This document shows, piece after piece, positions 1,434-51,897 of a stretch of DNA of 51,897 bases. The position numbers were made by a program, and so were the translations under genes. The DNA comes from a virus, in IMG/VR virus record IMGVR_UViG_3300020156_000459, positions 1 to 51,897 of that record. One strand, given 5' to 3'. The stretch's first letter is position 1, and each line of letters begins with the position of its first letter. Under the pieces are notes generated by a model. It was not told the origin of the DNA. It saw only the letters and a list, made by a program, of their open reading frames with translations, and searched no databases.

Positions 1434-1539
1434 TCAGGCCGCTGTGGCAAACATGCGTGTCTCGCCGAACGCCGGCACGACGAAGCGCTCCGGCGCGATC
1501 CCCCGCCGGCCGAGCGCGTCGGCCAGTGCCCGCACCGGT
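1434..1539 (-). pseudogene. 3' fragment of the disrupted MBL-fold hydrolase gene
   Basis: Joining 43555-44292 to this segment, and removing element 1 plus one copy of the 5-bp duplication, restores one open frame: IDAPVRALADALG, then GIAPERFVVPAFGETR, then the stop at 1434-1436. The RALADALGRRGIAPERF...GETR ending is typical of the UlaG/NAPE-PLD-like branch of metallo-beta-lactamase-fold hydrolases. The fragment now lies 42 kb away from the rest of its gene and has no start of its own. This is read directly from the sequence; the family assignment rests on the motif pattern. Confidence 0.85.
1535..1539. repeat. Target-site duplication CCGGT, low-coordinate copy of element 1
   Basis: CCGGT directly precedes the terminal TG of element 1 and matches CCGGT at 43555-43559 directly after the terminal CA. 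Mu transposition makes 5-bp duplications, and CCGGT fits the degenerate N-Y-S-R-N preference of Mu. Confidence 0.9.
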
Positions 1540-1586
1540 TGTAGCGCGCCGAATGGTTTGACGGGCTGCGCCGGATGGTTTGACGG
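1540..1586 (+). other. Right end of element 1 with two transposase-binding-type sites (R1, R2)
   Basis: ATGGTTTGACGG occurs at 1553-1564 and again at 1575-1586, same orientation, starts 22 bp apart, beginning 14 and 36 bases from the terminal TG. In phage Mu the R1 and R2 sites for MuA are also adjacent 22-bp sites. No clear third copy was seen just inside. The element 2 end has the same two-site arrangement. Confidence 0.8.
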
Positions 1587-7530: not shown

Positions 7531-7533
7531 GGC

Positions 7534-10500
7534 TCAGTGCCCTCCGGCCGCGCGCATCAGGACCGGCTCACCGTCGCCGGTCACTTCCTCGCGCAGCTCG
7601 TCGACGGCATCGACCACCGCGCCAACCGCGTCCTTCACCGCGCCGCCGGTGCCGGCGACAACCTGCATGAGCTGGTCCAGGCGGTCCCGGATCTCGCCCA
7701 GGCCGCGCGCGATGGCGGCGGTGTCGACGCTGATGACGGCGGGGCCGCCGTGGCTCTCGGCCAGCCGCTCGATCAGGCGCGACTGCTCGACCGAGAGCAC
7801 GCGCTCCTCCGGCATCAAGAGCGCGCGCACGCTGTCCAGGCCGCTCACCGCGCCGGGGAAGGTGCTGGGCACCTTGCCGCCTTGGGCGAAGCGGCGCCCC
7901 TCGAAGAAGCCCGACCGCAGGTAGTGCTCCAGGCCTCGGCCGGTCGGATAGCCGCCGAGCGCCTGCGCCACGTCGGGATTGAGGCGCAGGTAGCGCTCTT
8001 CGGACCACTGGATGCCGGCGGCGCCGAACTGTTGCTCGAACTGGTCGAGGATGCCGTTCAAGTGCAGCTTCGACTGCACCAGGTCGTTGGACAGGTAGCT
8101 GCTGAAGCTCCCGCCGTACATGTTCTGGATGGTCCAGGTGAGCGGGCCGCCGGAAGCGCTGGCGACCTGCGACGCCTTCCCGCCGTCCAGGACGGTGCCT
8201 TCGGGCTGCGGCGTGGTGCTGCCGCCGCCGGTGCCCGTCCCACCCGTGCCCGTCCCACCCGTGCCCGTCCCACCCGTGCCCGTCTTGGCGTCGATCGACC
8301 TCAGCGCCTCGACCATCTCGCGGAGGTAGCCGCCGCCGGTGCCGAAGATGCCCTCGAACAGCGTGCCCAGCGGCACCTGCTTGGCCAGCGGACCGCTGAT
8401 GCCCGTCTGCTTCTCGATCTCCGACAGGGGCGCGCCCTCGGCGTTCAGCGCGGCGGCGAGCAGCTGCGGCATCGCGTTCAGCGCGTCGGTCTGCCGTTGC
8501 GCCTCGGACTTCACCATGGGCAAGCCGCCCAGCGCGGCGTCGATGAAGTCCTCGACCCCCTTGTAGTCCAGGCCGCTCGCCTGACCCTCCTGGGCGAGCT
8601 TGCGGTAGGTCTCGGCGTACTGCGTGATCTGGCGCAGGGCCTCCTGCACCGTCGTCGGGTCGCTGGACGTGGCGATCAGCGAGAGCTGCGACACGAACTG
8701 CTCACGGGCCGCCTTCAGCCGCTCGTCATAGCCGGCGGCACCGTCGTTGCCCGTCTTCAGACCGTCCCGGTAGCGCTGGATATCGGCACCGGTCGACCGG
8801 GCGAAGCTGGCCAGCTCCTCCATCGCCGATTGCGCCGTCGCCGCCGCCTCGCTGGCGGCCAGCCCGGTGCGGTCCCAACGGTCGATGGCCTCGCTGTAGA
8901 GGGTGTTGAACTGCTCGGTGGTGATCCGGCCGTTGCGGAGGTTGGCTTCCAGGCCCTCGATCGCGCGGTTGAGCAGCGACACGTCCTGGATGCCGGCGGC
9001 CAGGGCGCCGAACAGGAGGCGCAGGCGGCGGGTGGTCTCCGGAAAGGCGTCGCGGTTCAGCCCGGTGCCCGAGTACAGTTCGTCGACCGTGACCACGCCA
9101 TCGCCGCGCAGGGTGCGGGCGGTGCGAGCGCGCGACGCATTCAACGTCGACTCCATCGCCAGCGCGGCGGCGCGGCCGTCTTCGAAGCTCTGCGTCAGCA
9201 GCCCCAGGATGCTGGAGAACTGGTCGGCGGTGATGCGCCCGTTGCGCAGCCGCCGGATCAGCTCGTCCTTGGCGCCGATCAGATCGTCCAGCGTGCCCTT
9301 GCCCGAACGGGCCTTGTCGAAGAAGCCGTCCAGGCTGGCCGTCAGGGCCGGGAACTCACCGGCCTTCAAGCCCAGCTCGTCGAGCACGTCGGCGGCGGTG
9401 CTGCGGAAGGTCGGATCGTACTTCGCGCGCAGGGACCGCGTGGCGCGGCGGTCGACGGTCTGGATGCCCTCCTCGAACGCGTTCACCGCGGCGGCAACGT
9501 ACCGGCGGGAAAAGTCGGCCTGCGCCTCGGCCGTATACTCCAGGGCGGTCAGGGTGGAGCGCAGCCCTTCCAGTGCGATCTCCGCCTGCTTGGTCACCCC
9601 GGCCACGCCCGTCAGCGGCCGGTAGTCGGGGGTCCGCAGGCCCAGTTCCGTCTCGAACGACTTTTGCAGCAGCGGAAGGGCGTTTTCCTTGGTGTCGAGG
9701 CCCAGCTTGGTCACGCGCGTCAGCAGGTCGACGTACGTCTCCTGCATCGTCGTGCCCATCTCCTTGGCGGAGGTGGTCCACTGCTTGATCTGATCGTCGA
9801 AGGGGTTGTACCCCTCGCGGGTGATCTTCTTGACGTTGGTCCAGGTGGCGGCGGCGCCGAGGTCCTTGGTGAATTCCTCAACCGTCTTGGCCGTCGACAT
9901 CTTCAACGCCTTGGTGACGTTGTCATCTTCGAACGCCAGCTTGCCGGCCTGCACCAGCTTCGCCTGGAAGCGCCGGACGCCGTCGATCACGGCCTCTTCG
10001 GCCGTGTCGAAGCCCGCGGATTTTTGATTGTCCAACTCGGAATAGAACTTGCCGTCTTTCGCAAAGTGCGAAATGACCAGCCCGTAATCCTTGGCGGCCT
10101 TGTCCAGGCGGCCGGAGCCGATATCAAGCAGGCCGTTGAACAGCTCGGCCGCCGCGTTGCCCAGCGCCTTCGCGTTCTCGTCCGATCCCTCGTTGTCCGT
10201 ACCCCACGACTTGAGGCTGGCCTTGCCGTCGTCGATGCCCATGCGGCCGGCGGAGATGGGGCCGACCGTTTCCTTTTGCGTGCCGAGCACGGCCATGACG
10301 GCGGCCAGCACCGCCGCCGCCGCCCAGCCGTAGGGGCCGAGGCTCAGCAGGCCCATCTGCGTCGCGGCATAGGCGCTCAAGCCGCCGATCGCCGCGCCGG
10401 CCAAGCCGCCGGCCAGCTTGCTGTTCAATGCGGTGCCGATCATCGCGCCGCCCGCTCCGCCGATGGCGGCCGGGGCGAGCACCTGCCCGAACGACGCCGC

Positions 10501-13500
10501 GCCGCCGACGAAGGACTCACCGGAAGTGGTCAACATCGGCGTGTTGGCGATCGCCGTGTCGCCGATGACGTCGACATAGACGGTCGACAGGCCCGCCTGC
10601 TGGCCGAGCGACGACGTCGCGAACCAGTTGGCCGCGTTCCCCAGCGTCGAGGCGCCGTTGTAGATCGAGTAGGCGCCGGACGCGGCCGACAGGCCGTTCG
10701 ACACCGTGGAGAACATGCCGCCCTGGCCGGCCGCCTGGGCCTGCCCGGCGATGTTCGACGCGGCGCTGGCGCCGCTGGAGAACATGGACCACAGCGACGG
10801 GCTGGAGCCGCCGGTCATCCAGTTCTTCATCGGGTTGATGACGGCCAGCTGCAACGCGGCCTGCACCAGCTCCGACAGGACGGCCTTGGCGACCGAGCCG
10901 AAGGTGATGGCCGATCCCTTGCCTTCGACGAAGGCTTGAGTGATCGCGCTGCCTATGCGGTCGAAGGCCCGCTCGCCGATCCGCGCCAGCTCGTCCCACA
11001 GGGCGCGCTGCTCGCCGATGGAGCGTTGGGTGCGCAGGATCGTGTCTTCCTTGCGCAGAAGGGCCTTGACCTCCTCCTCGGTCGCCTGGGGGTTCTGCCG
11101 CCGGATTTCCAGCTCCGCACGGGCCAGGGCCAAGATGTGTTCGCGCACCTCGGCGGACTGCCCCTGGAGCGACAGCTCCAGCTCCGCCAGCTTCAGCTCG
11201 TCGTCCTTGGCCTTCGACGCCGCTTCGTAGTTCTGCTGCGCCTGCCACCTGGCCAGCTCCGCCGTCTTGGCGGCGATGGCCTTGCCGCGCTCACTGTCGA
11301 GGCGGACACCCTCCCGCTCGGCCTGGGCGGCGGCGGCGTTCTTGACGGTCGCCTCCGTCACCGCCTTGGCGCCGTCGCGCTCGGCCAGCGCCAGCGCCTT
11401 GGCGGCGGCGATCTGGAGGTCCATGTCGCGCGTCCACTGCGCGGCGGCGAGCGCGCGGCGGGCGGCGTCCTCCTCCTTCAGGGCCCGCGCCAGGGCAGAG
11501 TGCGCGCCGGCCCCGGACTTGGCCGTCTCCGTCTCGATCCGGTTGGCCAGCTCCTGGGCGGCCACGGCGTCGGCGCCCTGGGCGTAGGCGTCAGCCAGCG
11601 CCAGCATCTGGCGGGCCGACCGCGACGTGACGTTGGCCTGCGCGCCGATCTCGCCGGACAGCTCGGCCATGCCGGACTTCAGGACGGCGGCGCGGGCCGC
11701 CTTGGCCTGTTCCTTGTCGCCGGACTTGGCCAGCTCCTGGTCGTAGGCATTCTCGGCCTGCGCGGCGACCACGGCGGCTTGACTGCCGCTGGCGCGTGCC
11801 TGGGCGAGGCGCTCCGTCGCCTTGGCTTCCAGGTCGAGCTGCGCCACCCGGTCGGCGCCACGGGCGGACTGGTTGCGGCGGGTGGCGGCGGTGAGGTCGG
11901 CCGCCTCGTCGTCGGTGAGGGGGCGGCCCTTCTCCTCCGCTGCCTTTTCGAGCGTCTGGTAGAGTTCGCGCCGCCAGCCGTCCGGCACGGACAGGGCGGC
12001 TGTCGTGTCGTTCAGCGCCTTGATGGCGGCGGTGACCGGGTCGATCTTCTCGCGCAGCCGGTCCATCATCATGGCGATGTCGGCCGCCGTGACGCCCAGC
12101 TTCTTCAGCTCCTCCGGCGGGAGCGCGGCGACCTTGGTCAGAAGCCCCATGCCCTGGGCCAACGCGGCCTGCGACGCGGTGAGCAACCCGGTCTTGCCCG
12201 GCAGCAGGTCCAGTTCCTTGGCCAGTTCGGCGAAGGGGATGGCCAGCTTGGCCGCGGCGCTGGCGACGGTGCCCAGCCCGTCGCCGGTCACGCCCCACAT
12301 TTCCGCCCAGCCGTCGCTGCTGGTGACGACCACCTGATCCAGGGCGTTCCAGCGTCGGGTGACCTCGTCCAACTCGCGATTGATCCGCGCGAGGTCCGCC
12401 TCCGCGGCCTTGGCGTTGCGGCTGGCGTAGACGCCGCCGGCCCCGGCGCGGTAGCGGGCGAGTTCCTTCTCCTTGGCGTCCCGCTCCGCCAGCAGCTCGT
12501 CGAAGCGCTGGCTCTCGAACAGTCGCGCGGCGCCGGCCTGCCCGTTGTTGCTCCACTGGAGGAAGCGGGTGCCGAGGTTCAGTGCACCGGCGCCATAGTC
12601 GGCGGCCGACGTCGTGCCGGGCAGCGCAGGCTTACCGACCTCGGCCAGGAACTTCTTGCGGGCGTTCTCCAACCGCGCCCACGCGCCCTCGACACCCTGG
12701 GCCGCCGCCGCCGCCTCGCCGCTATAACCCTTCAGGGCCTTGACCAGGGTGTCGCGGAAGACCTCGGAGGTGACCTTGCCCTCGTTGATCAGCCGGCGGA
12801 AGCCGCCGGCCGGCAGGCCCGCCGCCTTGTCCAGGTCGAGGAGAAGGCCGGGCAGCGGCTCCACAACCTGGTTCAGCTCCTCCATGTGCACGATGGGCGA
12901 GGCGAGAGCCTGTCCCAGGCCGTACATCACGTCGCCCATGCGGCCGGCGTCGGCCGCGAAGTGCGCCTGCGCGTCCTTGAGACCGACCGTCAGGTCGCGG
13001 GCCTGCTGGACGGTGAGCAGGCCGCCCTTGGCCAGCGTGAGGAACCGGGCGTAGCCGTCGCCCATCTCGCGCACGCTGGTGCCCAGCGCGTTGGCCGTGT
13101 TGCTCAACCAGAGCTGTGTTTCGCCGAAAGCCGTGCCGGAGCCGACCAGCCCCTTGAGGCGCCGGTCGAATTGCTCGGCCTCGGCAGCGGCGGTAACCGC
13201 GGCCTTGCCGAACGCGATGAGGCGATCGGCGGCGACCACCGCCATCAGGCCGCGGAAGCCGACCGTCAGTGCGTCGACGCGCTCGAACAGGCTGGCGGCG
13301 TTGTCGTTGACTGCGCCGGCCGCGCGGTTCCAGCCGAGCATGGCCCCGGCGTGCTGGCCCAGGTCGGCGGCGGCGTTGCGGTGGGCCGCCGCGCCGGCGA
13401 GGACCGCATCGTGCAACACCTGGGCGCGCGACGAGGCGAAGCCCATGTCCTCCCCCAGCCCTCGCGCGGCGCCGCGCTTGGCAGCAAGGGTGGTGACGTT

Positions 13501-13651: not shown

Positions 13652-13663
13652 CCGTCAAACCAT
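13652..13663 (-). other. Internal copy of the transposase-site motif (ATGGTTTGACGG)
   Basis: The complement of 13652-13663 is exactly ATGGTTTGACGG, the 12-base core found at the element ends. It lies in the short gap between the GT extension and the tape measure start, just upstream of the ribosome site. Function unknown; other internal copies are at 17667 and 29865. Confidence 0.6.
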
Positions 13664-13666
13664 TCG

Positions 13667-14059
13667 TCACGTCTTCGGGCGGCGGCGCTCGTACTCCGCC
13701 TCCCACACCGCCAGCGCCGCCTCTTCCATCGCTTGCAGGCTGGTCACCGTCTCCGCGTCCCAGGGAACCCCGTGGGCGTCGGCGAGCTGGCGGACCTGGA
13801 GGAGATCGAGGCCGAGCGGAACGCCCCCCATCGGCGGCTTGCGCCACATGCGCCGGGCGGCGTCGAACAGGGCGAAGATCGGCCAGACGGCGGCGTGCAC
13901 GACGAAGACGGGCGGCTCCGGCTCATCCTCCGGGTCGGCGGCTGGCGGGTCCTGTCCTGTCAGGGCCGCCAGCTCGTCGGCGTCGGGCTTGGCCGAGAAG
14001 CGGCGGCGCGCGGTGGAGGCGTCACCGCCGGCCCACCGCCGCGCCGCCGCTACGAGTTT
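13667..14059 (-). CDS. Tail assembly chaperone extension T (made as G-T by -1 frameshift)
   Basis: This frame has no convincing start of its own. It continues from gene G by slipping one base back at GGGAAAC (complement of 14056-14062), giving ...GGG AAA CTC GTA and then LVAAARRWAGGDASTARRRF to the TGA at 13667. The extension (about 130 residues) includes PDADELAALTG, a Pro/Glu-rich linker (DPPAADPEDEPEPP) and a helical C-terminus (LQVRQLADAHG, AVWEAEYERRRPKT). In lambda and most long-tailed phages, gpG and the frameshifted gpGT load on the tape measure protein to guide tail tube assembly. The next gene here is the tape measure, as expected. The frameshift is inferred from the classic heptamer and the two overlapping frames. 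Confidence 0.8.
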   Translation of the reverse strand, partial: KLVAAARRWAGGDASTARRRFSAKPDADELAALTGQDPPAADPEDEPEPPVFVVHAAVWPIFALFDAARRMWRKPPMGGVPLGLDLLQVRQLADAHGVPWDAETVTSLQAMEEAALAVWEAEYERRRPKT

Positions 14060-14544
14060 CCCGTCTTGCCACCGTTGACCAGCTTCCAGAACGCCTGCTC
14101 CAGACCGACGCCGATGGGGCGGAAATCGGCCATGGCCTCCACCAGGTCGGACGAGAACTCCGGCAGATCCTGGAAGATGCTGCCCCAGTTGTGGTTGTCC
14201 GGCAGGCCGACGACGACGCGGCGCAGCAGCGAGAGCCGCCAGCCCTTGTAATCGGCCTCCGCTTGCTCGGCCTCGCGCTTCGCCTCGGCCTTGGCCTCGT
14301 CGTCGGTGGCGTCGCGGACCTTCTTGGCGGCCGTGTTGATGCGGTCGATGTACTCCTGCAGCTCCTTCTGGAGGTCGTCCAGTTCGCTGTCCGGGACCAG
14401 CTCGAAGGTGACGAAGCAGGTCTTGGTGGTATGGCGGCCGGTGGTCGTGCGGCCGGGCTTGGCGGACTCCGGCCACTTGATCTCGACCGGCCAGTCGAAA
14501 GTGAGGCGGTCGCCCTGGACGAACTGAAGTTGCGGCTTGCTCAT
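14050..14544 (-). CDS. Tail assembly chaperone G, 164 aa
   Basis: The ATG at 14544 begins MSKPQLQFVQG. A beta-rich N-terminal half (DRLTFDWPVEIKW, TCFVTFELVPDSE) leads to a charged coiled-coil stretch at residues about 56-105, then LLRRVVVGLPDNHNWG and a C-terminal helical part. The zero-frame product ends ...GKTGNS with TAG two codons after the slippery heptamer GGGAAAC. It lies between the tail tube and tape measure genes, the normal place for the G chaperone. A clear homologue in element 2 (44892-45416) shares VVVGLPDNH and DLVEAMA but lacks the slippery site. The role comes from order and the frameshift arrangement. Confidence 0.83.
   Translation of the reverse strand: MSKPQLQFVQGDRLTFDWPVEIKWPESAKPGRTTTGRHTTKTCFVTFELVPDSELDDLQKELQEYIDRINTAAKKVRDATDDEAKAEAKREAEQAEADYKGWRLSLLRRVVVGLPDNHNWGSIFQDLPEFSSDLVEAMADFRPIGVGLEQAFWKLVNGGKTGNS
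14056..14062 (-). promoter_or_regulatory. -1 ribosomal frameshift site GGGAAAC
   Basis: On the minus strand the heptamer reads G GGA AAC in the zero frame, the canonical X-XXY-YYZ form; lambda uses GGGAAAG at the same point. The zero-frame stop follows at 14050-14052 and the -1 frame stays open to 13667. The downstream RNA is very GC-rich and could form a stimulating structure. Confidence 0.8.
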
Positions 14545-18086: not shown

Positions 18087-18980
18087 TCAGGCGAGCCAGG
18101 GAACGACGACGAGCTGGGCGGTGCCCTTCCACTCGTTGTCCTCGCCGTTGGCCTTGCGCTGGTTCTCCAGGATCTGGCGGCCCTTGCCCTCCAGCGACGG
18201 CGGCACCACCAGGTGCGTGGGGTTGACGCCCAGCGGCTCGCCATGGTCGCGCTTGAGGTTCTGCATGGCGGTGCGGGCGGCCTCGTAGTTCGCGTGCGTC
18301 AGGTCGGCCTTGGACCCGTGGGCGAGCTGCCAGAAGCCGAAGCCGACATTGGCGCGGCCATCGACGCCGTAGCGGTACTGCTTGCGATCGAACACGATCT
18401 CGCCGGTCGGAGCGTCCATGCGCACGAAATCGAAGCTGCGGCGCTTCTGGTAGACGATCGGCTTGATGGCCCGGCTGAGGTCCATCAGGAACCACGGCGT
18501 GCCGGCACCGGCCTGATAGTTGGAGACGGAGACCGTGCTGCCGTCCTCCGCGATCACCGGGTGATCGGTGTCGAAGAAGTACTGGCCGTCGTAGCAGGGC
18601 TTGGCAAAGCCGGACTTCAGCAGCGGGAACACCAGCGTGTTGGGGAAGTTCGCCGTCTGGCGCCCCATCTCGGTGAACATCGGCGCGTAGAGGCCGAACT
18701 TGTCGTCCTCGATGTTGTTGCGGTCGACGCCGATGGTGAGTTCCCAATCCTTGTTGCGGATCAGGTAGGACGCGGTTTCCAGGTTGTGGACGACGCGCGG
18801 GCCGATCCACTCCCGGAAGCCGGGGATGTCCTTCATCCAGCCGTAGTTCTCTTCCGAGGTGGTCGACGGCGTCTCCATGGCGACCATGTCCCACTGGGAC
18901 TTGACGCTGCCGAAGCCGTTCTGGAAGGACGTCTGGAAGCCGGTGTACAGCGCGAGCAGGCTGGACGCGGTGATGAGCAT
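18087..18980 (-). CDS. Major head protein (Mu gpT-like), 297 aa
   Basis: The ATG at 18980 gives MLITASSLLALYTGFQTSFQNGFG, the typical start of Mu-like major head subunits. Further family landmarks are YGWMKDIPGFREWIGPRVVHN, ELTIGVDRNNIEDDKFGLY, CYDGQYFFDTDHPV and the C-terminal GTAQLVVVPWLA. Length is normal. It assembles the icosahedral capsid shell with the decoration protein upstream and the protease/scaffold two genes upstream. The element 2 copy (47985-48905) is clearly homologous but diverged. Confidence 0.95.
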   Translation of the reverse strand: MLITASSLLALYTGFQTSFQNGFGSVKSQWDMVAMETPSTTSEENYGWMKDIPGFREWIGPRVVHNLETASYLIRNKDWELTIGVDRNNIEDDKFGLYAPMFTEMGRQTANFPNTLVFPLLKSGFAKPCYDGQYFFDTDHPVIAEDGSTVSVSNYQAGAGTPWFLMDLSRAIKPIVYQKRRSFDFVRMDAPTGEIVFDRKQYRYGVDGRANVGFGFWQLAHGSKADLTHANYEAARTAMQNLKRDHGEPLGVNPTHLVVPPSLEGKGRQILENQRKANGEDNEWKGTAQLVVVPWLA

Positions 18981-43379: not shown

Positions 43380-43554
43380 CCGTCAAACCATCCGTCCGTC
43401 AGCGTACAATGCGGCGATGTCCGTATGGTTTGACAGAACGGAGTGGACGCGTCTCGAAAACCTAGGCATCACAACGCCTGCACGTCCCACTCGATCCCCC
43501 AAAATCCCACCGTATCCCGGCCCCCTATCCCGTCAAACCATTGGTCTCTCTACA
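43380..43554 (-). other. Left end of element 1 with three transposase-binding-type sites (L1, L2, L3)
   Basis: ATGGTTTGACGG-type cores lie at 43530-43541 (minus), 43425-43436 (plus, ending ACAG) and 43380-43391 (minus). Measured from the terminal base these are positions 14-25, 119-130 and 164-175. In Mu the L1, L2 and L3 sites of MuA are at about 6-27, 111-132 and 155-176, so spacing is conserved almost exactly. This supports A acting here and fixes the left end. Confidence 0.82.
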
Positions 43555-44292
43555 CCGGTGCGTCGATCGCCTCGGGCGTCAGGCGGAAGGTGCCGAAATG
43601 CATGGCTACGCTGGTGCGGGCACCCAGGTCCTCGTGCGCCGCCACCGCCTCCTCCGGGTTCATGTGCTGCGGCGCCATGAACCAGCGCGGCTCGTAGGCG
43701 CCGATGGGCAGCAGCGCCACGTCGATGCGCGGGAAGCGGGCGCCGATCTCCTTGAAATGCGGGCCGTAGCCGGTGTCGCCCGCGAAGTACAGCGTGCCGG
43801 CATCCGTCTCCACCACGAAGCCGCCCCACAGCGTCGTGTTGCGCCGGAAGGGCGCGCGCGCCGACCAGTGCTGCGCCGGCACGAAGGTGACGCGGCAGCC
43901 GGCCGGTCCCCGCGTGCTCTGCCACCAGTCCAGTTCCTCGACGTGCGCGAAGCCGTCGCCGTTCAGCAGCGGCCCGTTGCCCAGCCCCACCACCGCCCGC
44001 GGCCCGAAGCGCCGGGCCAGCGCCGCCAGCGACGGCCGGTCCAGGTGGTCGAAGTGCCCGTGGCTGACCAGCACGAGGTTCGGGTCCGGCAGCCGTTCCA
44101 GCGGCACGCCCGGCGGGCGGGCCCGCTTCGGCCCCAGCCGGCCGAACGGACCGGCCCGTTCGGAGAACACCGGGTCGGTGAGCAGGCGAAGGCCCGCCGC
44201 CTGCACCAGGAAGGTGGCGTGGCCGACATGGGTGACCGCCAGCGCGCCCGGTGCCGGGGGTGCCGGGACCGGCTGCGGCGGGTCCTCGACGC
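43550..44292 (-). pseudogene. MBL-fold hydrolase gene, middle part, disrupted at both ends
   Basis: The frame is open from 44292 down to a TAG at 43550-43552 supplied by element 1. It reads VTHVGHATFLVQAAGLRLLTDP, then LVLVSHGHFDHLD (metal-binding HxHxDH), VGLGNGPLLN, GCRVTFVPAQHWSAR, GDTGYGPHF and MHFGTFRLTPEAIDAP. This is a UlaG/NAPE-PLD-like metallo-beta-lactamase-fold hydrolase, substrate unknown. The true C-terminus lies at 1434-1539. The N-terminus is missing: the frame runs into the end of element 2 at 44293, before the VGHAT motif with only about 25 host residues. The gene is therefore cut twice. Confidence 0.88.
43555..43559. repeat. Target-site duplication CCGGT, high-coordinate copy of element 1
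   Basis: Directly follows the terminal CA of element 1 and matches 1535-1539. Confidence 0.9.
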
Positions 44293-44339
44293 TGTAGCGC
44301 GCCGAATGGTTTGAATTGGCGCGCTGGATGGTTTGACAG
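44293..44339 (+). other. Right end of element 2 with two transposase-binding-type sites
   Basis: TG at 44293-44294; cores at 44306-44317 (ATGGTTTGAATT, degenerate after nine bases) and 44328-44339 (ATGGTTTGACAG), 22 bp apart as in element 1. The end interrupts the MBL frame. Confidence 0.8.
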
Positions 44340-44390
44340 CGCTGACACCCCGTTTCAGGCTTACCGGGAATTGAAGAAGCCTTGGCGCTT

Positions 44391-44807
44391 CTAGGCTAGC
44401 GCCGGCAGTGTCGCATCGTCGCCCAGGTGCGCAATTTGAACATTCCTTCCCGGCGGCTTCCCCCCTGGAGGCTCGATGATAACAACGCCGTCTTTCGTAT
44501 GATAATGGATAATCAGGACTGTGCGCGCACATCTGGCGGGATTGGAAAGACGGGACAGGGCTTGCCGATTGTACTTTTTCAAAAAGCGAAAGCATTCACG
44601 CATATAGATCCTGTATTCTTCCTGAATATCTTTGCGGAGCTGTTCCAATGCCGTTGGGCATGGCGGGTTGCCGCACAGATCGCTTTCCCACTTGGCAAAT
44701 ACATTATTCAAACGCGATGAAAGGTCGGCCGCCACTTCCCCTGACAGCAGGCGCGCGGTTACCTTCTGTGGGCGCTCCCCTGTGCCGTCATACGCGTGCT
44801 GCATCAA
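44391..44807 (-). CDS. Hypothetical element 2 protein, 138 aa
   Basis: MMQHAYDGTGERPQKVTARLL, then RLNNVFAKWESDLCGNPPCPTALEQLRKDIQEEYRIYMRE (helical), and a beta-rich C-terminus (TVLIIHYHTKDGVVIIEPPGG). No family recognised. It lies next to the right end, where element 1 has fibre genes, and has lower GC than those. A strong hairpin lies upstream (44856-44883), so it probably has its own promoter. Cargo is a possible explanation. Confidence 0.55.
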   Translation of the reverse strand: MMQHAYDGTGERPQKVTARLLSGEVAADLSSRLNNVFAKWESDLCGNPPCPTALEQLRKDIQEEYRIYMRECFRFLKKYNRQALSRLSNPARCARTVLIIHYHTKDGVVIIEPPGGKPPGRNVQIAHLGDDATLPALA

Positions 44808-44855
44808 CGTCCACTCCTGATTGGTTCGTTATGCCCTCCCGCTCGACAAGAGGGC

Positions 44856-44883
44856 CGCTCGGCCGGATCTGGCCGGCCGAGCG
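44856..44883 (-). terminator. Hairpin downstream of the chaperone-G homologue
   Basis: CGCTCGGCCGG (44856-44866) pairs perfectly with CCGGCCGAGCG (44873-44883) around a 6-base loop, eight bases after the stop at 44892. Minus-strand sequence after it is CCCTCTTGT, only weakly T-rich. Confidence 0.6.
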
Positions 44884-44891
44884 CGCCGGAA

Positions 44892-45416
44892 TCACTTCGG
44901 CTGCTCGCCGTTGACGAGCTGCCAATAGGCGTCCTCCATCGCCTTGCCGATCACGCGATAGCCGGCCATGGCTTCCACGAGGTCGGGCGAGAAGTCCGGC
45001 AGCGTCGAGAAGAAGGCATTCCAGCCGTGGTTGTCGGGCAGCCCCACCACCACCTTCCGCAGCAGCTCCGTGCGAAAGCCCTTGTGCTGGCTTTCCAGCT
45101 TCTCGACTTTGGCGTTGAGTTCCTTCAGATCCTTTTTCGCCTTGGCGGCGTTGCCGTCCGACGCTTCCAGGGCGAGTTTCGCGGCCTCCTGCTTGGCCTC
45201 CGCGATCTCGCTGACGCGCTGGCCCAGCTCGGCGATGAGCTGATCGTGCTCGCTGTCCGGCAGCAGCATGAACGACAGATAACAGGTCTTTTTGACCTGT
45301 TTCCCACCCACCCAGCCGCCGCTGGCACGCTTGGCCGTTTCCGGCCAGTTGAACATGACCGGCCACACAAACGTCATTTCGGTGGGGGCTGCAAGAGTAA
45401 TCTTAACCTGTTCCAT
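44892..45416 (-). CDS. Tail chaperone G homologue without frameshift signal, 174 aa
   Basis: MEQVKITLAAPTEMTFVWPVMFNWPETAKR, TCYLSFMLLPDSEHDQLIAE, a coiled-coil middle, then ELLRKVVVGLPDNHGW and DLVEAMAGYRVIGKAMEDAYWQLVNGE align throughout with the element 1 protein at 14050-14544. The end, VNGEQPK, has no GGGAAAC heptamer, and no T-like frame follows; a hairpin does. It also lies downstream of the tape-measure-like gene, opposite to the standard order. It could be a remnant, or a protein that competes with or captures the helper chaperone. Confidence 0.75.
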   Translation of the reverse strand: MEQVKITLAAPTEMTFVWPVMFNWPETAKRASGGWVGGKQVKKTCYLSFMLLPDSEHDQLIAELGQRVSEIAEAKQEAAKLALEASDGNAAKAKKDLKELNAKVEKLESQHKGFRTELLRKVVVGLPDNHGWNAFFSTLPDFSPDLVEAMAGYRVIGKAMEDAYWQLVNGEQPK

Positions 45417-45439
45417 TTCCGCTCTCACTCGTTCTTTAG

Positions 45440-45820
45440 TTAATCCATCAACGAATTGAAGTATTCTGCAATGTCTCTCCATTCGCCTGTCAAAGACTGC
45501 TTTGCTGATGCGATCAGGTCATTGATGTACACCTCAACTTCGAACCTGACATTCTTTCTTTTGTTTTGGTACAGCGCGCTCAGTCGGCGCCTCTGCCAGC
45601 GCTTTGTTAACATGGACCCGAGAAGGCGTTCGGTGTCGTCAATGTGCGCCACCAGTATTCTCTCAATGCTTGCTCGCAGATCGGAAAACAGAGGATGTCT
45701 GGCATCAAAATGTTCTGATGATCCAACCAGTTCAGAAAACGCATTGCGATTGCTGATATCCCAGCGTTCCAGCACGCTGCGGATTGCGTCAGCTCCGTTT
45801 GTCGGCATAGCGGGGCGCAT
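45440..45820 (-). CDS. Hypothetical element 2 protein, 126 aa
   Basis: ATG at 45820 overlaps the TAA of the upstream gene (TAATG), which decides the start. The protein is helical and basic: ADAIRSVLERWDISNRNAF, FSDLRASIERILVAHIDDTERLLGS, LTKRWQRRRLSALYQNKRKNV. No family recognised. Lower GC than the phage core genes suggests different origin. Confidence 0.6.
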   Translation of the reverse strand: MRPAMPTNGADAIRSVLERWDISNRNAFSELVGSSEHFDARHPLFSDLRASIERILVAHIDDTERLLGSMLTKRWQRRRLSALYQNKRKNVRFEVEVYINDLIASAKQSLTGEWRDIAEYFNSLMD

Positions 45821-46482
45821 TATCCGAAACTCGACGCTGTTGCGGTTCTGGATCGGTATTCGGCCGCGTGCGGGCACCCAAAGCGGTCGTAATACTCGCT
45901 ATAATCAGGGTAAAATCCTGCTATTTTTTGATCGGCGCCATGCTCATTTACTTCGGTAAGATGCATGACGCCACCAATGCACATTGGTTGACTAAATTTC
46001 TCCTGTACCTTGTGCTGCCCAAGCGCCATCTTTACCATCATGGCCTCATCGGCATGCGCGGGAAGGCGCACACCCGGCGCCATTCTGGGCGCAAGATGAA
46101 TGCCCGGCTCCATCGTGGTCGCCTGGACAGGCACACCACCGGCGCGAAGCTTGTACCTCGTGCTCTGCGGCGCCTGCTTGTTGGCGGACCAGCACATCAA
46201 CGTGATTTCACCACCGGACGCTTCGAAGAATTCATCACCGATACGCTCGGGGACGCCGCGAATAACGATATCCACATGCTCTATGCTTTCGACGCGCGCC
46301 AGTACAGGCCCAAGGACTTGAAGAAGCGCATGTGTTCCGCGCATGGAGAATGCAAATCGGCCGCTCTCAGAGACGAAACACTTTCGTTCGCAAAGGCCAA
46401 CCGGCATGTTGCCCCGGTATATCATCGTGTCCGTCAGGCACAAAATGCGGTCGCTTCCCACGAATACGTTGCTGACGCTCAT
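45820..46482 (-). CDS. Possible Ntn-hydrolase-fold protein, 220 aa
   Basis: SVSNVFVGSDRILCLTDTMIYRG, CERKCFVSESGRFAFSMRG and VDIVIRGVPERIGDEF recall proteasome/HslV-like Ntn hydrolases, where a strand-turn with a DT motif is followed by a strand bearing SG..A. The N-terminal nucleophile is not obvious here (no Thr/Cys/Ser directly after a processing point), so activity is uncertain. The C-terminal half (VMHLTEVNEHGADQKIAGFYPDY) is unassigned. The ATG at 46482 overlaps the upstream stop. No counterpart in element 1. Confidence 0.5.
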   Translation of the reverse strand: MSVSNVFVGSDRILCLTDTMIYRGNMPVGLCERKCFVSESGRFAFSMRGTHALLQVLGPVLARVESIEHVDIVIRGVPERIGDEFFEASGGEITLMCWSANKQAPQSTRYKLRAGGVPVQATTMEPGIHLAPRMAPGVRLPAHADEAMMVKMALGQHKVQEKFSQPMCIGGVMHLTEVNEHGADQKIAGFYPDYSEYYDRFGCPHAAEYRSRTATASSFG

Positions 46483-47867
46483 TTAATTGCCTCTTCGAAC
46501 GCGGAGACGACTTCGGGGCAGGTCAAGAATTCGTCCGAGAACTCACACTCGGCCATAACCTTCTCAAGCTCGTTGGACAGATCCTTCAGATTGTCCGTCT
46601 GGGTCACGACACCGCCACTGCCGTTGGCGGGCGGGGCGTTGTCCTGCTTCGTCAGGTCGTTGAGTTCGCGTTGCAGCTCGATCCGGCGCTTGACCAGCGC
46701 CTCATGCATGGCGGGAACGCCGCTCGTTTTCTCGGGAAGGCGCCCGTACTCCCGGTCTATCCGCTCGATCTCCGCCCGCAACAGCGACGCCCTGTCCGAC
46801 TCGATGCCGGCGCGAAGCGCCTTGGCCGCGTCACTGACCTTGCCCGCAACCAGCTTGGCAATGTCGCTCCGGGCGAGGCGGTCAACGTAGGCGTCCCAGG
46901 CCACGCCAGCGTCATGCAGCGCGGCGCCCCACTCGCTGCGCATGGTCTGGGCCGCGCCACCGTACCGCTGGCGCAACGCCTCGATGGCGACGTTCAGCGC
47001 GCCGGCCTTGTTGCCGTGGTCAGCCAGCATGCGCACCTGGCGCTCTTGCTCGACCGACAGGAAGTTCAATTCCGCATCGAGTCGCTTGACGCCCTCGCCC
47101 CCCTTGCCGAGAGCGTCCCCCATCTTGGCGGCGGCGGCCGGGATCGTGTAGCCCAGCACCGCCGCAACATCCGGCGCGAGTTCCAGGATGCTGCGGAACA
47201 GCTCCGGGTCACGGAGGTCGGGGTTGCGCACCAGCTCCAAGGTGGACTGGTATGCTTCGCTGCGGGACGCCCCTGCATGGATCGCGACGTTCGCCATGTC
47301 GCGGAGCTGGCCGGCCGTGATGCCGGCCTCATTGCCCATCGCCTTCAGGATGGACGCGAGTTCCCGCCCCTCGGCACCGATGCTCGCCATGCGCGCGGCG
47401 ACGATGCCGATCGGCGCGGCGATCACGGCGGCGGCGGCGCCGATGCCCAGGATGCGGCCCGTGATGCCGGGGAACGCTTGGAGCAACTGCCCGCCCTGTT
47501 GCATCAGGACGGTGAACGGGCTGGCGCCGGACGACAGCGATGCCGCAACGTCGCTGGCCGTGTAGCTCAGCGCCTGGATCTGCTGCGTGCTGAACCTCGT
47601 CTTGGTCGCCAAGTTGTCGTTGGCGCTGGCCGCACCGCCGAACGCCGCACCGGCCCTGTCGGCGGCGCCGGCCGCAGCGCCCAGCGATTGCTTCGCCTCG
47701 TCCGCCAGTGTGTCCAGGCGGCCAAGCGCCTGTGAAAGTTGCTGGCCAGCTTCCCGGCCAGTATCACCAAGCTTGGACACCTCGCCCGTTGCCTTGCGAA
47801 GCTCCACTACGAAGTCTTCGGCTTCCGCAGTCAGCTTGAGGACGACGTGTTCTGCAACCTTGGTCAT
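46479..47867 (-). CDS. Short tape-measure-like protein, 462 aa
   Basis: MTKVAEHVVLKLTAEAEDFVVEL is a normal tape-measure start, and QIQALSYTASDVAASLSSGASPFTVLMQQGGQLLQAFPG is the hallmark of the prophage tail length tape measure family. A hydrophobic stretch (LGIGAAAAVIAAPIGIVAARM) and helical parts follow. It then ends after about 460 residues with an unusual tail (ECEFSDEFLTCPEVVSAFEEAIK), where true tape measures run 700-2000 residues. It is not homologous in detail to the 2035-residue protein of element 1. Either a truncated gene joined to other sequence or a deliberately short protein. Confidence 0.7.
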   Translation of the reverse strand: MTKVAEHVVLKLTAEAEDFVVELRKATGEVSKLGDTGREAGQQLSQALGRLDTLADEAKQSLGAAAGAADRAGAAFGGAASANDNLATKTRFSTQQIQALSYTASDVAASLSSGASPFTVLMQQGGQLLQAFPGITGRILGIGAAAAVIAAPIGIVAARMASIGAEGRELASILKAMGNEAGITAGQLRDMANVAIHAGASRSEAYQSTLELVRNPDLRDPELFRSILELAPDVAAVLGYTIPAAAAKMGDALGKGGEGVKRLDAELNFLSVEQERQVRMLADHGNKAGALNVAIEALRQRYGGAAQTMRSEWGAALHDAGVAWDAYVDRLARSDIAKLVAGKVSDAAKALRAGIESDRASLLRAEIERIDREYGRLPEKTSGVPAMHEALVKRRIELQRELNDLTKQDNAPPANGSGGVVTQTDNLKDLSNELEKVMAECEFSDEFLTCPEVVSAFEEAIK

Positions 47868-47888
47868 GACGATACTCGCTCGCGATTG

Positions 47889-47926
47889 GGCCGGCGCTGG
47901 ACTGCTAGACCAGCCCAGCGCCGGCC
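47889..47926 (-). terminator. Hairpin between the element 2 head gene and tape-measure-like gene
   Basis: GGCCGGCGCTGG (47889-47900) pairs perfectly with CCAGCGCCGGCC (47915-47926); the 14-base loop can pair partly too. It is 58 bp downstream of the major head stop. No T-run follows on the minus strand. It probably ends or limits the head transcript. Confidence 0.6.
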
Positions 47927-47984
47927 GCACTCCGATGCGGTAAGGAGAGCCGGCCCCCGCACCGGATGCCGCTGGGATGCCCGG

Positions 47985-48905
47985 TTACAGGTACGGGGAC
48001 ACCACCAGTTCGGCGGTGCCGGCCCACTCGTTGGGCGCCGCGACCGTCTGTTCGTTCGGCGCCGTGCCCACCGTGACCAGCTTCATGTTGTTCTTGATGA
48101 GACGCAGCCCGTCGCCTTCCAACTCGTCCGGCACCACGAGGATGTTGGGGGTAAGGCCCAGCTTCTTGCCGTTCTCGCCCCGGATGCTCTTGATCGCCAC
48201 GCGGGCCGCCTCGTAGTTGTCGTGCGTCAGCGGCGCCTTGCTCGCATAGGCGAGCTGCCAGAGCCCGAAGCCGGCGTTGGCGCGCGCGCGGACGCCGTAG
48301 AAATACTCGTCTTTCCAGAAGACGTTGTCGTCCGTGGCGGCGTCCTGCCTCTGGAACTCGTACGGCAGCCGCTCCTGAAACACGAGGGGTTTGACCGGCT
48401 GGCCGGCGTCCATCAGGAACCACGCCGGCCCGGCCCCATCCTGATAGTTGCTGTAGGACGTAGGCTGACAGTCGATATCCACGACATGATCAGTGGAGAA
48501 GAACGGCTTGCCGTCGTAGCACAGCTCGGTAAACCCGGCTGCCAGAAGCTCGTACACCAACTGGTCGGGGTGCTTCGCCGCGTCGGCGCCCATCTTCTCG
48601 TACAGCGGGCCGAAGACGCCGTACTGGTCATCTTCGATGGCCGTACGGGGAACGCCAATGGTCACCTCAAACGTGCGGTTCTTGATGGTGTAGCCCGCGA
48701 CTTCAAGGTTATGGATGATACGCGAGCCGATCCATTCCCGAAGCTGCGGAAGTTCCTTCAACCAACCATAAGCTTCTTCGCCCGTCGCGCTGTTTGTCTT
48801 CATGGCGATTTTCAGGTACGTGCTTTCGACGCCCTTGAAGCCCTTGTTGAAGGAGGTCTTGAACCCGGCGAACATGCCGGCGAGGTTGGGGGCGGTGATG
48901 AGCAT
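47985..48905 (-). CDS. Major head protein (Mu gpT-like) of element 2, 306 aa
   Basis: MLITAPNLAGMFAGFKTSFNKGF, YGWLKELPQLREWIGSRIIHN, EVTIGVPRTAIEDDQYGVF, CYDGKPFFSTDHVVD and GTAELVVSPYL match the Mu-type head subunit over the full length and align with 18087-18980, with clear divergence. The frame is intact, which argues for selection on capsid formation. It follows the protease directly; the decoration gene of element 1 is absent. Confidence 0.94.
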   Translation of the reverse strand: MLITAPNLAGMFAGFKTSFNKGFKGVESTYLKIAMKTNSATGEEAYGWLKELPQLREWIGSRIIHNLEVAGYTIKNRTFEVTIGVPRTAIEDDQYGVFGPLYEKMGADAAKHPDQLVYELLAAGFTELCYDGKPFFSTDHVVDIDCQPTSYSNYQDGAGPAWFLMDAGQPVKPLVFQERLPYEFQRQDAATDDNVFWKDEYFYGVRARANAGFGLWQLAYASKAPLTHDNYEAARVAIKSIRGENGKKLGLTPNILVVPDELEGDGLRLIKNNMKLVTVGTAPNEQTVAAPNEWAGTAELVVSPYL

Positions 48906-48914
48906 GGCTGTCCC

Positions 48915-49880
48915 TTACAGGTTCTTGGCGTATTCGGCCGGATCGTGTCCGAGGGCCGCGCAGATGGCCTTCTGTTCGGCGGTAAGGCGCCCATCGGCGC
49001 CCGAGTTCGGATCGGGCGGCCGGCCCCCCGGCACCACCTCACGGGCGAGGTTGCCGAACACGGGCGGAGCGCTGGCGGCGAACTGGTCGAAGCTGGCCGG
49101 GTTGGATCGGCAGAGGACGAGCCCCCACTCCCGCTGGGCCGGTGTCATCTTGCCGGCGCGGATCGCGGCGTCGACCTTGGCCGTCGCCTGCTCCTCCGAA
49201 AGGTTGGTGCGCATGCTGGCGAGCTGCGTCGCGGCTTCATCATAGAGATGGCGCGGCACGTAGAGGGACGGGTCGGGCACGGCGGCGGCCGTCGCCTTCT
49301 CGCTGGCGTCCTTGACCAGCTTCGTGACGGCCTCGATCACGGCCGCTTCGTCGCTGGTGTCGGGCAGGTTCAACAGCGCGCACAAGCGCTTGATGGTTTC
49401 GGGCGACATGGGCGCTCCCATACTGGCAAGGGCCTTGAGTTCGAAGGCCGGGTTGTTGACCAGGGCGGCCCGAAGAATGCAGGTGACCGCGCCTTCCTTG
49501 GTGTGCCGGAAGACGGGGGACACGTAGCGGTACTCCCTGGCCGCGATCTTGGCAGCGGCGCGCTGCGTCCACTCCACGCGGCCCCAGATGCCATCAGGGC
49601 GGGCCTCAAAGGCCGCGATCCAGCCTGCGGCGGGCGCCTGTCCACCGTGCGGGGCGGCGAGGTCAACGGCGTGGTCGTAGTCGATCACCGGCTTGACCGG
49701 ACCGGCCATCGTCAGGGACGCGGCGATCACCTGTTGCGCGGCGGCCATGCCGGGAAGGGACCAGGGGCCGCGACCGTCGCGGCCCTTGATGGTGCCGTAG
49801 GGCAGAAGCTGCACCCAATCCGGCGGTGCGGCGGGGAGTTCGGAAGAGAAGGAGGCGAGAGCGATCAGGGGATCAGTCAT
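48915..49880 (-). CDS. Head maturation protease/scaffold (Mu gpI-like) of element 2, 321 aa
   Basis: PPDWVQLLPYGTIKGRDGRGPW, PVIDYDHAVDLAAPHGG, PAAGWIAAFEARPDGIWGRVEWT and AAREYRYVSPVFRH show the Mu gpI-type protease; the rest is the coiled scaffold part ending GRLTAEQKAICAALGHDPAEY. It is 58 residues shorter than the element 1 protein, mainly in the scaffold part. ATG 49880 overlaps the mor stop. An internal ATG at 49409 with a GGGAGCG site could give scaffold alone. Confidence 0.92.
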   Translation of the reverse strand: MTDPLIALASFSSELPAAPPDWVQLLPYGTIKGRDGRGPWSLPGMAAAQQVIAASLTMAGPVKPVIDYDHAVDLAAPHGGQAPAAGWIAAFEARPDGIWGRVEWTQRAAAKIAAREYRYVSPVFRHTKEGAVTCILRAALVNNPAFELKALASMGAPMSPETIKRLCALLNLPDTSDEAAVIEAVTKLVKDASEKATAAAVPDPSLYVPRHLYDEAATQLASMRTNLSEEQATAKVDAAIRAGKMTPAQREWGLVLCRSNPASFDQFAASAPPVFGNLAREVVPGGRPPDPNSGADGRLTAEQKAICAALGHDPAEYAKNL

Positions 49881-50247
49881 TGCTAATATCCCCATAGATC
49901 TCGCGGCGCACTTTCCTTACGTGGCGTTCAGTACATCCCACGGCCTGTGCGACGACACGCGTTTTCGCGCCTTCCATCGCCAATATCAGTTCCTTCTTGG
50001 AACCAGCCGGCGGCGGCAACACCGGGATGTCAATCTGTTCTCCAGGATACATATTTCCTATTATTTTGGCGTGCTCCAGTCCGACAATCTTTGCGATCTT
50101 GGATCGTTCCGAAGGGCTCGCGGCAAATTTCCTCTTAGTGCCGCCCCAAGAAAGGCCAAGTTTTATTGCCGTTTCGTATGATGTCGCCCGCGCAATACCC
50201 GCCAAGAAGGGAGGAAGCCTCTTGATCCTGTCATCAGTGATCGCCAT
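49873..50247 (-). CDS. mor: Mor/C family activator of element 2, 124 aa
   Basis: LSWGGTKRKFAASPSERSKI, GLEHAKIIGNMYPGEQIDIP and the HTH TRVVAQAVGCTERHVRKVRRE match the Mor/C family and the element 1 protein (same length). ATG 50247 (MAITDDRIKRL) is chosen because longer starts (50271 ATG, 50289 GTG) would lie in or at the palindromic operator 50273-50284. Unlike element 1, it is the first gene of the head operon, so an operator pair upstream (50273, 50319) would give positive autoregulation of mor, protease and capsid together. Confidence 0.88.
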   Translation of the reverse strand: MAITDDRIKRLPPFLAGIARATSYETAIKLGLSWGGTKRKFAASPSERSKIAKIVGLEHAKIIGNMYPGEQIDIPVLPPPAGSKKELILAMEGAKTRVVAQAVGCTERHVRKVRREIYGDISND

Positions 50248-50588
50248 AGCCTTGACGTAGCCCCCCGGCATCGGAATTGGTTCCGACACTAGGGGGACGG
50301 AGAAGCGTCTATCGACGCGGAACTAGTTCCCCTTTGTCGGGGGAGCTGAGAGATATCCAGCTTTGATGAAGAGGAGCGGCCGATACGCCCGGCCGATTGC
50401 CGCCCGTTTGAACGGGGCTTTGAACGCCTCTGGGGCGTAGGGCGCACCCACGCTACCGGAAAACGCCAGAACGCACCAGCGGGCTTCCTGTGGGCTTCCA
50501 GGGCGGGGCACCCGGCAGCCACCTCCAATGCGAAACGCCCCGCCGGTAGACCCGGCGGGGCGTTGGTGTCGGCAGCGCGGCGAGGCGT
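50248..50588 (-). promoter_or_regulatory. Element 2 late promoter region: two palindromes, TTTGAACG repeat, terminator
   Basis: This 341-bp gap has no gene. It holds GGAAT-TG-GTTCC at 50273-50284 and GGAAC-TA-GTTCC at 50319-50330 (extended to GACGC on the left). The second lies 72 bp upstream of the mor ATG, compared with 73 bp for the site before the element 1 protease. CGTTTGAACG (50405-50414) and CTTTGAACGCC (50418-50428) repeat the element 1 arrangement at 20706-20729. The far end is the terminator of the previous gene (50535-50563). Confidence 0.68.
50535..50563 (-). terminator. Intrinsic-type terminator of the gene at 50589
   Basis: ACGCCCCGCCGG (50535-50546) pairs perfectly over 12 bp with CCGGCGGGGCGT (50552-50563), loop 5. 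On the minus strand TTT follows the stem, and the stem begins 26 bp after the stop at 50589. Confidence 0.75.
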
Positions 50589-50921
50589 CTACGCCTCGCG
50601 GGCGTGCCCGCCAGCGCCAACCGCGCGCTCCATGATCGTATCGACCTTCTCCGTGACTAGCTCCAGCATGGCGATCCACTGGCCCCGCTCGGTGGTGCCC
50701 ATGATCATCGCTTCAATGGCGCGCAGTCCGGCCTTCACCTGCATCAGGTCGTCGCCCAGGCTGTGTTCTGCCTCGCCAGCGACGTAGCCGGCCATGCCCC
50801 TCCTACGCGCCTTCCCCATGATGGACGTGAGTTCTTCGATCACCGCTTCTCTGACCGCGCTCCCCCGCTCCGCGCTGTTCTTGAGGAAGATCACGTTGTT
50901 TCCGGTGTTGTCGTGGGCCAT
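50589..50921 (-). CDS. Small element 2 protein, 110 aa
   Basis: ATG 50921 with an AGGAGG site ten bases upstream. Helical, charged: NNVIFLKNSAERGSAVREAVIEELTSIMGKARRRG, GDDLMQVKAGLRAIEAMI, AMLELVTEKVDTIMERAV. No family recognised. It ends at a strong terminator, so it is a separate unit from the head operon. It lies downstream of the BRO-like gene with a 107-bp gap. Confidence 0.65.
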   Translation of the reverse strand: MAHDNTGNNVIFLKNSAERGSAVREAVIEELTSIMGKARRRGMAGYVAGEAEHSLGDDLMQVKAGLRAIEAMIMGTTERGQWIAMLELVTEKVDTIMERAVGAGGHAREA

Positions 50922-51028
50922 ATTCGAAGAGCCTCCTATGGGTTCGCCCGGTGGCACGGTGGCGGGGCACGGTTTTCCAGGCCAAGCGCCCCGCCACCAC
51001 CCGTCGCGGGCGGTGGGGTGGTAGGGAA

Positions 51029-51553
51029 TCACGATCCGGCGATGTCGAGGATGCGACGCGCCTTCTCGATGGTGACCGTCAGTTCCATGCGCACGAGGTT
51101 GGTTGTGGGGATGCCAGCCCCCGCCTCGCCCATGTCCAGGCCCGGCGGGATCGGCGGGGCCTCACCCTCCGGCCCGAAGGTCGTGTAGAGCCACCGCAGC
51201 ACCCCAACGGCGTGGGCGGAGCGACTACGGGCCACCATCACCTTCGCGGCAGGGATGGAAAGAAGGCGGGTTGCGGCGCCTCTCCCGTCGTCGATCTGGC
51301 GCAGTAGGACGGCGCCCGGCTCTCGCAGTTCCGGGAAGGTTGACGCGGCATGGTCCACCGACTGCCTTGCCCAACTGGCGCCGGCCGCCCGCATCAGGTC
51401 GTTGCCGAGGACGTAGGTTGTGCCGTCCACCGAGAAGACGCGGACGGGGGCCGCACCACAGTAGAGGGTGCAGACAGGCGGCAGGCGGGCGTTGTCGGCT
51501 GGCACCTCGGGCCGTCCTTCGGCGGGGGCCGCTGGTGTGCGGGGATCGTCCAT
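51029..51553 (-). CDS. BRO-N/antirepressor-like protein, 174 aa
   Basis: After a Pro/Ala-rich start, VCTLYCGAAPVRVFSVDGTTYVLGNDLMRAAG recalls the BRO-N/antirepressor opening (strand, VRV, strand, W/YvlgkDva+aLG), followed by GAVLLRQIDDGRGAATRLLSIPAAKVMVARSRSAHAVGVLRWLYTTFG, also family-like. These proteins act as antirepressors or DNA-binding regulators in prophages. The match is partial. It diverges from the HTH gene at 51661 across a palindromic promoter region. Confidence 0.6.
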   Translation of the reverse strand: MDDPRTPAAPAEGRPEVPADNARLPPVCTLYCGAAPVRVFSVDGTTYVLGNDLMRAAGASWARQSVDHAASTFPELREPGAVLLRQIDDGRGAATRLLSIPAAKVMVARSRSAHAVGVLRWLYTTFGPEGEAPPIPPGLDMGEAGAGIPTTNLVRMELTVTIEKARRILDIAGS

Positions 51554-51660
51554 CTACTGCTCCAAACTGCGGTTGCGTTGGCCCCATGCATGGGGTAATT
51601 TGCCCCAGATTGGGCGCCGTTGCAATGGCAAAATGCGCCAACGTTGGGGTAAATCGCACC
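51554..51660. promoter_or_regulatory. Divergent promoter region with palindromic operators
   Basis: CCCCATGCATGGGG (51582-51595) is a perfect 14-bp palindrome; GGGG-N7-CCCC overlaps it (51592-51606). GGGGTAA occurs again at 51646. GGCGC...GCGCC (51613-51639) adds another inverted pair. This dense dyad symmetry between an HTH gene and a BRO-like gene suggests a switch. Confidence 0.55.
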
Positions 51661-51897
51661 ATGATTACGGGTGACCAAATCCGGGCCGGCCGGGAACTGC
51701 TCAACTGGTCTGCCCGCGTCTTGTCTGAGCGGGCAGGCGTGGGGCCGAACACGGTGCAGCGCATGGAAAGCGCCGGAGCGGCGGTGCCATCAGGTCTTGC
51801 CGCCAACCTGGACAAGGTGCAGAAGGCATTAGAGGCGGGTGGGATTGAGTTCCGGGACGGCGGGTGGGTGCGTAGGTCACCGCAGAACGGCGCGTAA
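51661..51897 (+). CDS. XRE-type HTH regulator, 78 aa
   Basis: MITGDQIRAGRELLNWSARVLSERAGVGPNTVQRMESAG is a standard Cro/CI-type HTH covering residues 4-40; DKVQKALEAGGIEFRDGGW completes the family typical of small alphaproteobacterial HTH proteins. The frame is complete, TAA at 51895-51897. It reads away from the BRO-like gene. It could be the immunity regulator of element 2 or host-derived; the window ends here. Confidence 0.8.
   Translation: MITGDQIRAGRELLNWSARVLSERAGVGPNTVQRMESAGAAVPSGLAANLDKVQKALEAGGIEFRDGGWVRRSPQNGA

Follow-up and report, generated by a model that had tools for sequence, protein, structure and literature searches.

Two Mu-type insertions in one Azospirillum-type MBL-fold gene: a complete Mu-like phage and a compact, possibly satellite-like element

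Several families of phages that use an integrase have known satellites. For Mu-like and other transposable phages, nothing relevant on satellites was found in the open-access literature. The satellite phages Mulch and Flayer of Streptomyces keep encapsidation genes and lack key replication genes (PMC10690885). Early after induction Mu does not insert within 1.5 kb of its own ends and inserts only rarely up to about 5 kb from them, a protection that depends on MuB (PMC7350765). In phage Ab30 0.4% of the events struck a phage copy, and insertion hotspots exist for some Mu-like phages (PMC5977238). Here we describe a locus at which two Mu-type elements of very different gene content are separated by exactly 738 bp of host DNA (43555-44292, both target duplications included). 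The stretch of DNA analysed (the window) corresponds to one virus record of IMG/VR with a length of 51,897 bases. It begins and ends on stop codons, those of a gene at position 1 and of a small HTH gene at 51897, and therefore was probably excised as a provirus from a contig of greater length. Positions 1-1539, to the left of element 1, are host DNA. When phage records were searched for sequences nearly identical to the right half of the window, no match was obtained, and a search for defence-gene cargo gave a single negligible hit. The features are collected in Table 1.

Table 1. Positions of the host gene fragments, of the two elements and of their main genes in the window.
Feature	Position	Strand	Evidence or remark
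Target duplication CCGGT, left copy	1535-1539	.	sequence
Target duplication CCGGT, right copy	43555-43559	.	sequence
MBL-fold gene, C-terminal codons	1438-1539	-	frame restored with element 1 left out; ends PAFGETRMFATAA* as in intact homologues
MBL-fold gene body, N-terminus missing	43555-44292	-	PF12706 (Lactamase_B_2) E 2.8e-43; 62-69% identity to Azospirillum homologues
Element 1, complete Mu-like phage, 42,015 bp	1540-43554	-	TG...CA ends, CCGGT duplication, A, B, portal, terminase, gpT, tail genes
Element 1 right end, two ATGGTTTGACGG sites at 22-bp spacing	1540-1584	+	sequence
Element 1 major capsid gpT	18087-18980	-	PF10124 E 1.5e-130
Element 1 B-type AAA ATPase, 255 aa	37370-38137	-	phrog_296 DNA transposition protein E 1.6e-54; AAA_22
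Element 1 transposase A, 724 aa	38217-40391	-	phrog_310 E 1.8e-114; Mu-transpos_C, rve, HTH_Tnp_Mu_1
GACGC beside element 2 right end, presumed target duplication	44288-44292	.	sequence only; second copy expected outside the record
Element 2, compact element of Mu type, truncated at the record end	44293-51897	-	right end and gene content
Element 2 right end, two ATGGTTTGA sites at 22-bp spacing, followed by ATT and CAG	44293-44337	+	sequence
Element 2 homologue of element 1 tail-region gene g10	44892-45377	-	51% identical to 14050-14544
Element 2 short tape-measure protein, 462 aa	46479-47867	-	PF06791 E 3.8e-24; phrog_24
Element 2 major capsid gpT	47985-48905	-	PF10124 E 4.9e-113; compact-element clade
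Element 2 head protease (gene I type)	48915-49895	-	PF10123 E 2.7e-71
Element 2 Mor/C-like late activator	49873-50289	-	phrog_836 E 2.2e-12
Element 2 divergent gene for a small, repressor-like HTH protein of Xre type; the record ends with its stop codon	51661-51897	+	HTH_3 E 7.5e-06

If element 1 is left out and one CCGGT is kept, the MBL frame is open over 278 residues from the junction at 44292 to the stop, and its last 34 codons are found in the left flank of element 1. The best homologues are encoded in Azospirillum and are up to 69% identical. Because the intact Azospirillum homologues have about 39-52 additional N-terminal residues upstream of the 44292 junction, element 2 must have cut the gene near its 5' end. 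The preliminary description had a single MBL-fold gene struck near its 3' end by element 1 and near its 5' end by element 2, with 738 bp in between, and this holds at the three of the four insertion junctions that can be read in the record. The fourth junction, the left end of element 2, lies beyond 51897, and because the record stops there neither this end nor a second GACGC nor the MBL N-terminus can be read. With only one junction of element 2 visible, the one at 44292 could also have been created during assembly, by fusion of an MBL fragment with the end of an unrelated phage. This is very improbable, since exact matches between the two elements do not exceed 22 bp, which is too short for a plausible assembly jump, the MBL frame continues up to the junction, and element 2 starts precisely at the family consensus TGTAGCGCG. 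A misassembly between similar prophages, which had been named as a refutation, is unlikely for the same lack of long matches and because of the duplication and the restored frame around element 1. Two insertions in one gene could further point to a strong hotspot for this family of Azospirillum Mu-like phages, as it is known for some Mu-like phages (PMC5977238). However, the survey of 45 Azospirillum genomes gave 37 long uninterrupted matches to the MBL gene, and the other phage-flank loci examined do not contain any MBL sequence. The hotspot option of the preliminary description is therefore hardly credible. The gene itself looks dispensable.

Element 1 is a complete Mu-like phage in a simple insertion with a 5-bp duplication. 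Its late or right end is at 1540 and its A-proximal or left end at 43554, and it combines a DDE transposase A, an adjacent B-type ATPase, the ends and duplication, and head, packaging and tail genes. Portal, gpT, neck, adaptor and tape measure (2035 aa) were identified by profile, as was a CII-like regulator, while terminase and MuF have homologues in relatives that are annotated as such in one of the loci (L300). The gpT protein groups with those of complete Azospirillum phages. Element 1 shares A/B transposition, the gpT capsid, the protease, the 5-bp duplication and a length of about 40 kb with Rhodobacter phage RC1 and Rhodovulum phage RS1, which are Mu-like siphophages of Alphaproteobacteria, and with the B3/D3112-type saltoviruses. 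However, its A protein has no more than about 34% identity to the A proteins of RC1 and RS1, which are among the nearest isolated phages, and it is also set apart by its right end TGTAGCGCGCC..ATGGTTTGA and its dispersed ATGGTTTGACGN sites. Two complete relatives are flanked by 5-bp duplications as well (CGCCC in G007, AGGCC in G039).

The right end of element 2 reads TGTAGCGCGCCGAATGGTTTGA from position 44293. The right ends of the two elements are identical over exactly 22 bp (1540-1561 and 44293-44314) and diverge thereafter, and these 22 bp are the longest exact match anywhere between element 1 and element 2. The core ATGGTTTGA is found ten times in the window compared to 0.13 occurrences expected by chance. 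Allowing for up to two mismatches, the right-end pattern is present in 8 of 45 Azospirillum genomes, and a looser exact form of it in 9 of 82 Azospirillaceae genomes. The shared 22 bp thus had been counted correctly in the preliminary description, but the conclusion that one transposase should recognise both ends is weakened. They follow a right-end consensus common to an entire family of Azospirillum phages, some of which have strongly diverged transposases, for example that in G014, which has the same right end and only a distantly related transposase. Because phages with this end carry distant transposases, the 22 shared bases do not prove a common transposase. In addition, the three bases following the core are phage-specific, being CGG at seven of eight sites in element 1, CGT at eight of nine sites in G007 and at seven of eight in G045, and CGA at four of seven in G039. 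The two element 2 sites are followed by ATT and CAG and do not have the CGG-type extension of element 1. Further ATGGTTTGACGG-type sites are located in element 1 at 13655, 17667, 29865, 43383 and 43425, in short gaps and at gene ends. The last base of these sites is phage-specific in the relatives, and the sites resemble dispersed repressor sites (stoperators). In two genomes the same phage right end occurs repeatedly, three times in G025 (L287, L288, L289) and twice in G042 (L292, L293), so that each of them contains a Mu-like phage in more than one copy. A right end of the kind seen in elements 1 and 2 is also present in G017 (L206 1-16876), where the adjoining 17 kb comprise tail-type genes and do not encode any element 1 or element 2 proteins. 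The right-end matches in G056 are located at contig ends.

An A/B pair of the same specificity would be expected to refuse a target at a distance of 738 bp. Cis-immunity did not block the second insertion, probably either because the end of element 2 carries a different variant of the A site or because a matching A/B was absent at that event. The site variants together with the missing A/B in the visible part of element 2 favour that no matching A/B acted at the second event. Alternatively, immunity might just have been leaky. With its 738-bp spacing the locus also lends itself to testing whether target immunity of the Mu type needs matching A-binding sites.

Element 2 is a Mu-type insertion with one junction in the record. 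The preliminary description had treated it as a related transposable element, which is right with respect to its Mu-type right end. However, it differs in kind from element 1 and is a compact element in which no A/B, portal or terminase genes are visible. From the right end inward it encodes one unassigned protein, the g10 homologue, two unassigned proteins, the tape measure, gpT, the protease, the activator, two small proteins, and the divergent HTH protein. The structure predicted for the product of the gene at 45820-46482 is of low confidence (pLDDT 37). Portal, terminase, MuF, neck, and adaptor genes are all missing from the visible 7.6 kb. A and B are missing from this part as well, including the interval in which relatives carry them; the left end is beyond the record. 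The repressor-like gene occupies the place where the A operon should start. An integrase is not among the visible genes. In base composition element 2 (44391-51897) is a mosaic, with a GC3 of 0.84-0.86 in the protease, gpT, tape-measure and g10-like genes and of 0.57-0.62 in four others.

In a tree of 95 gpT proteins element 2 belongs to a clade (support 97/95) together with G049:C77, G051:C156, G039:C27 and L116, and the same clade was obtained in a second gpT tree (support 98/93). This clade consists of compact elements of Azospirillaceae only, so that element 2 has a gpT lineage of its own apart from the complete phages in addition to missing portal and terminase in its visible part. None of the four clade partners shows packaging genes, which for G051 and L116 could be judged only downstream of gpT because the stretch upstream of the protease is outside the data. 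The compact element of G039:C27 (L193, about 3430-11540) has a length of about 8.1 kb and encodes an HTH protein, A', B', GemA, protease and gpT. Its terminal GGGAATTATCCTGCACTGGC repeats differ from the end type of element 2. The G049 element encodes a Mu-type A (DDE_2) and MuB. The lineage is therefore not inherently dependent on a helper. The A proteins of the G039 and G049 elements can barely be aligned to each other or to that of element 1, and it follows that a single capsid and protease lineage has become associated with various transposition modules and in some cases with no visible one. Based on the two members with their own A and B, and given that the record is cut before the left end, element 2 could be compact and autonomous with A/B beyond 51897. 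This is quite improbable, because the relatives have their A/B genes in the interval from the divergent repressor to the late genes, which in element 2 contains only two small genes, and because its right end is of the element 1 phage type and not of that of G039.

Compact layouts are also found in Acetobacter, Vibrio, and the records L207 and L245/L247. The element on the Acetobacter aceti plasmid pAACEN2 (L409 2956-11608) is of Mu type and has a repressor, transposition-type genes, GemA, protease, gpT, and a connector; portal and terminase are not annotated. The one on the Vibrio campbellii plasmid pVCGX2 (L410 2465-17446) has a DDE transposase, an AAA ATPase, Mor genes, gpT, and a tape measure, and portal, terminase and protease are not annotated. 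A single origin of all ten compact elements was rejected (p-AU 3e-9). The compact layout is polyphyletic and has evolved separately on several occasions.

The absence of A, B, portal and terminase could also mean that element 2 represents a Mu-like prophage in decay with internal deletions, and that two ordinary prophages met in one dispensable gene by chance. The mosaic GC3 of its genes would fit decay, an insertion into an already dead gene would be neutral, and related remnants do exist, such as that in G050, in which gpT and protease are broken. However, the gpT and protease reading frames of element 2 are open and differ from those of the relatives mostly at third codon positions. Furthermore, its gpT groups only with compact elements and not with phages, and a comparable subset of genes is found again in several lineages. 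Decay is thus unlikely, although a serious contender.

A second case of a compact element next to a Mu-like phage is found in another IMG/VR record (2622736628_000006, L116). This record contains a relative of element 2 (protease 56%, gpT 64-66% identical) that ends at 4067 with TGTAGCGCG, a right end of the element 2 type. There it abuts a ner-like gene in its middle, and this gene belongs to a phage resembling element 1 (61% identity in A, 77% in B). The matching ner gene is intact through that point in G007 and L117, with 97% identity. The orientation of compact element and phage to each other is the same as in the window, and the left end is outside the record. The gpT gene of this compact element is split by an IS256-like insertion (L116 1513-2945). 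Both cases come from a virus collection, in which a full phage nearby favours viral calling, and because of this ascertainment bias an enrichment cannot be claimed.

Considering all data we favour the reading, with a probability of about 0.6, that a single MBL gene of Azospirillum type received two Mu-type insertions, element 1 being a complete phage and element 2 a compact, satellite-like and apparently non-autonomous element. Two separate transposition events would have struck the gene, in either order, and the second insertion would have been tolerated because the gene was already dead. Element 2 would most likely move when the A/B of an element-1-type phage acts in trans on its matching ends. 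Such a trans-mobilisation, which would make element 2 a satellite of Mu-like phages, is suggested by its lineage, its gene content and its end type. The matching right end is a circumstantial sign of mobilisation or packaging by a helper. Element 1 itself may or may not be the mobiliser, given that its CGG site variant is missing in element 2. The lineage of element 2 is a little-noticed one of stripped-down Mu-like elements, which may live off full-size transposing phages. It is a wider and somewhat doubtful proposition that compact Mu-type elements in general form a class of transposable phage satellites. Such elements would retain Mu-type ends and the genes for a late activator, a capsid protein and a protease. 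Their own gpT would serve to build capsids or to redirect them, and they would obtain transposase, portal, terminase, and tail from Mu-like helpers and insert into or beside these helpers. Their layout would have evolved several times. Compact elements that combine Mu-type ends with capsid and protease genes and have no packaging genes recur beside and inside Mu-like phages, which makes satellites of transposable phages a directly testable possibility.

Of the known systems, the capsid-forming PICIs (cfPICI) resemble element 2 in being small elements with their own capsid genes, and their capsids, too, are distributed over more than one clade when placed among those of phages, namely over several (PMC11389934). 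However, cfPICIs are defined by their own head and packaging module and an integrase, whereas the ends and the regulation of element 2 are of Mu type and portal, terminase and integrase are all missing from its visible genes. Like Mulch and Flayer, element 2 keeps encapsidation-type genes, but those phages are unrelated and element 2 is in addition devoid of portal and terminase. Non-autonomous elements of the MITE type likewise have an end matching that of an autonomous element and no transposase is seen in element 2 either, which, unlike them, carries a conserved capsid and protease module together with regulators.
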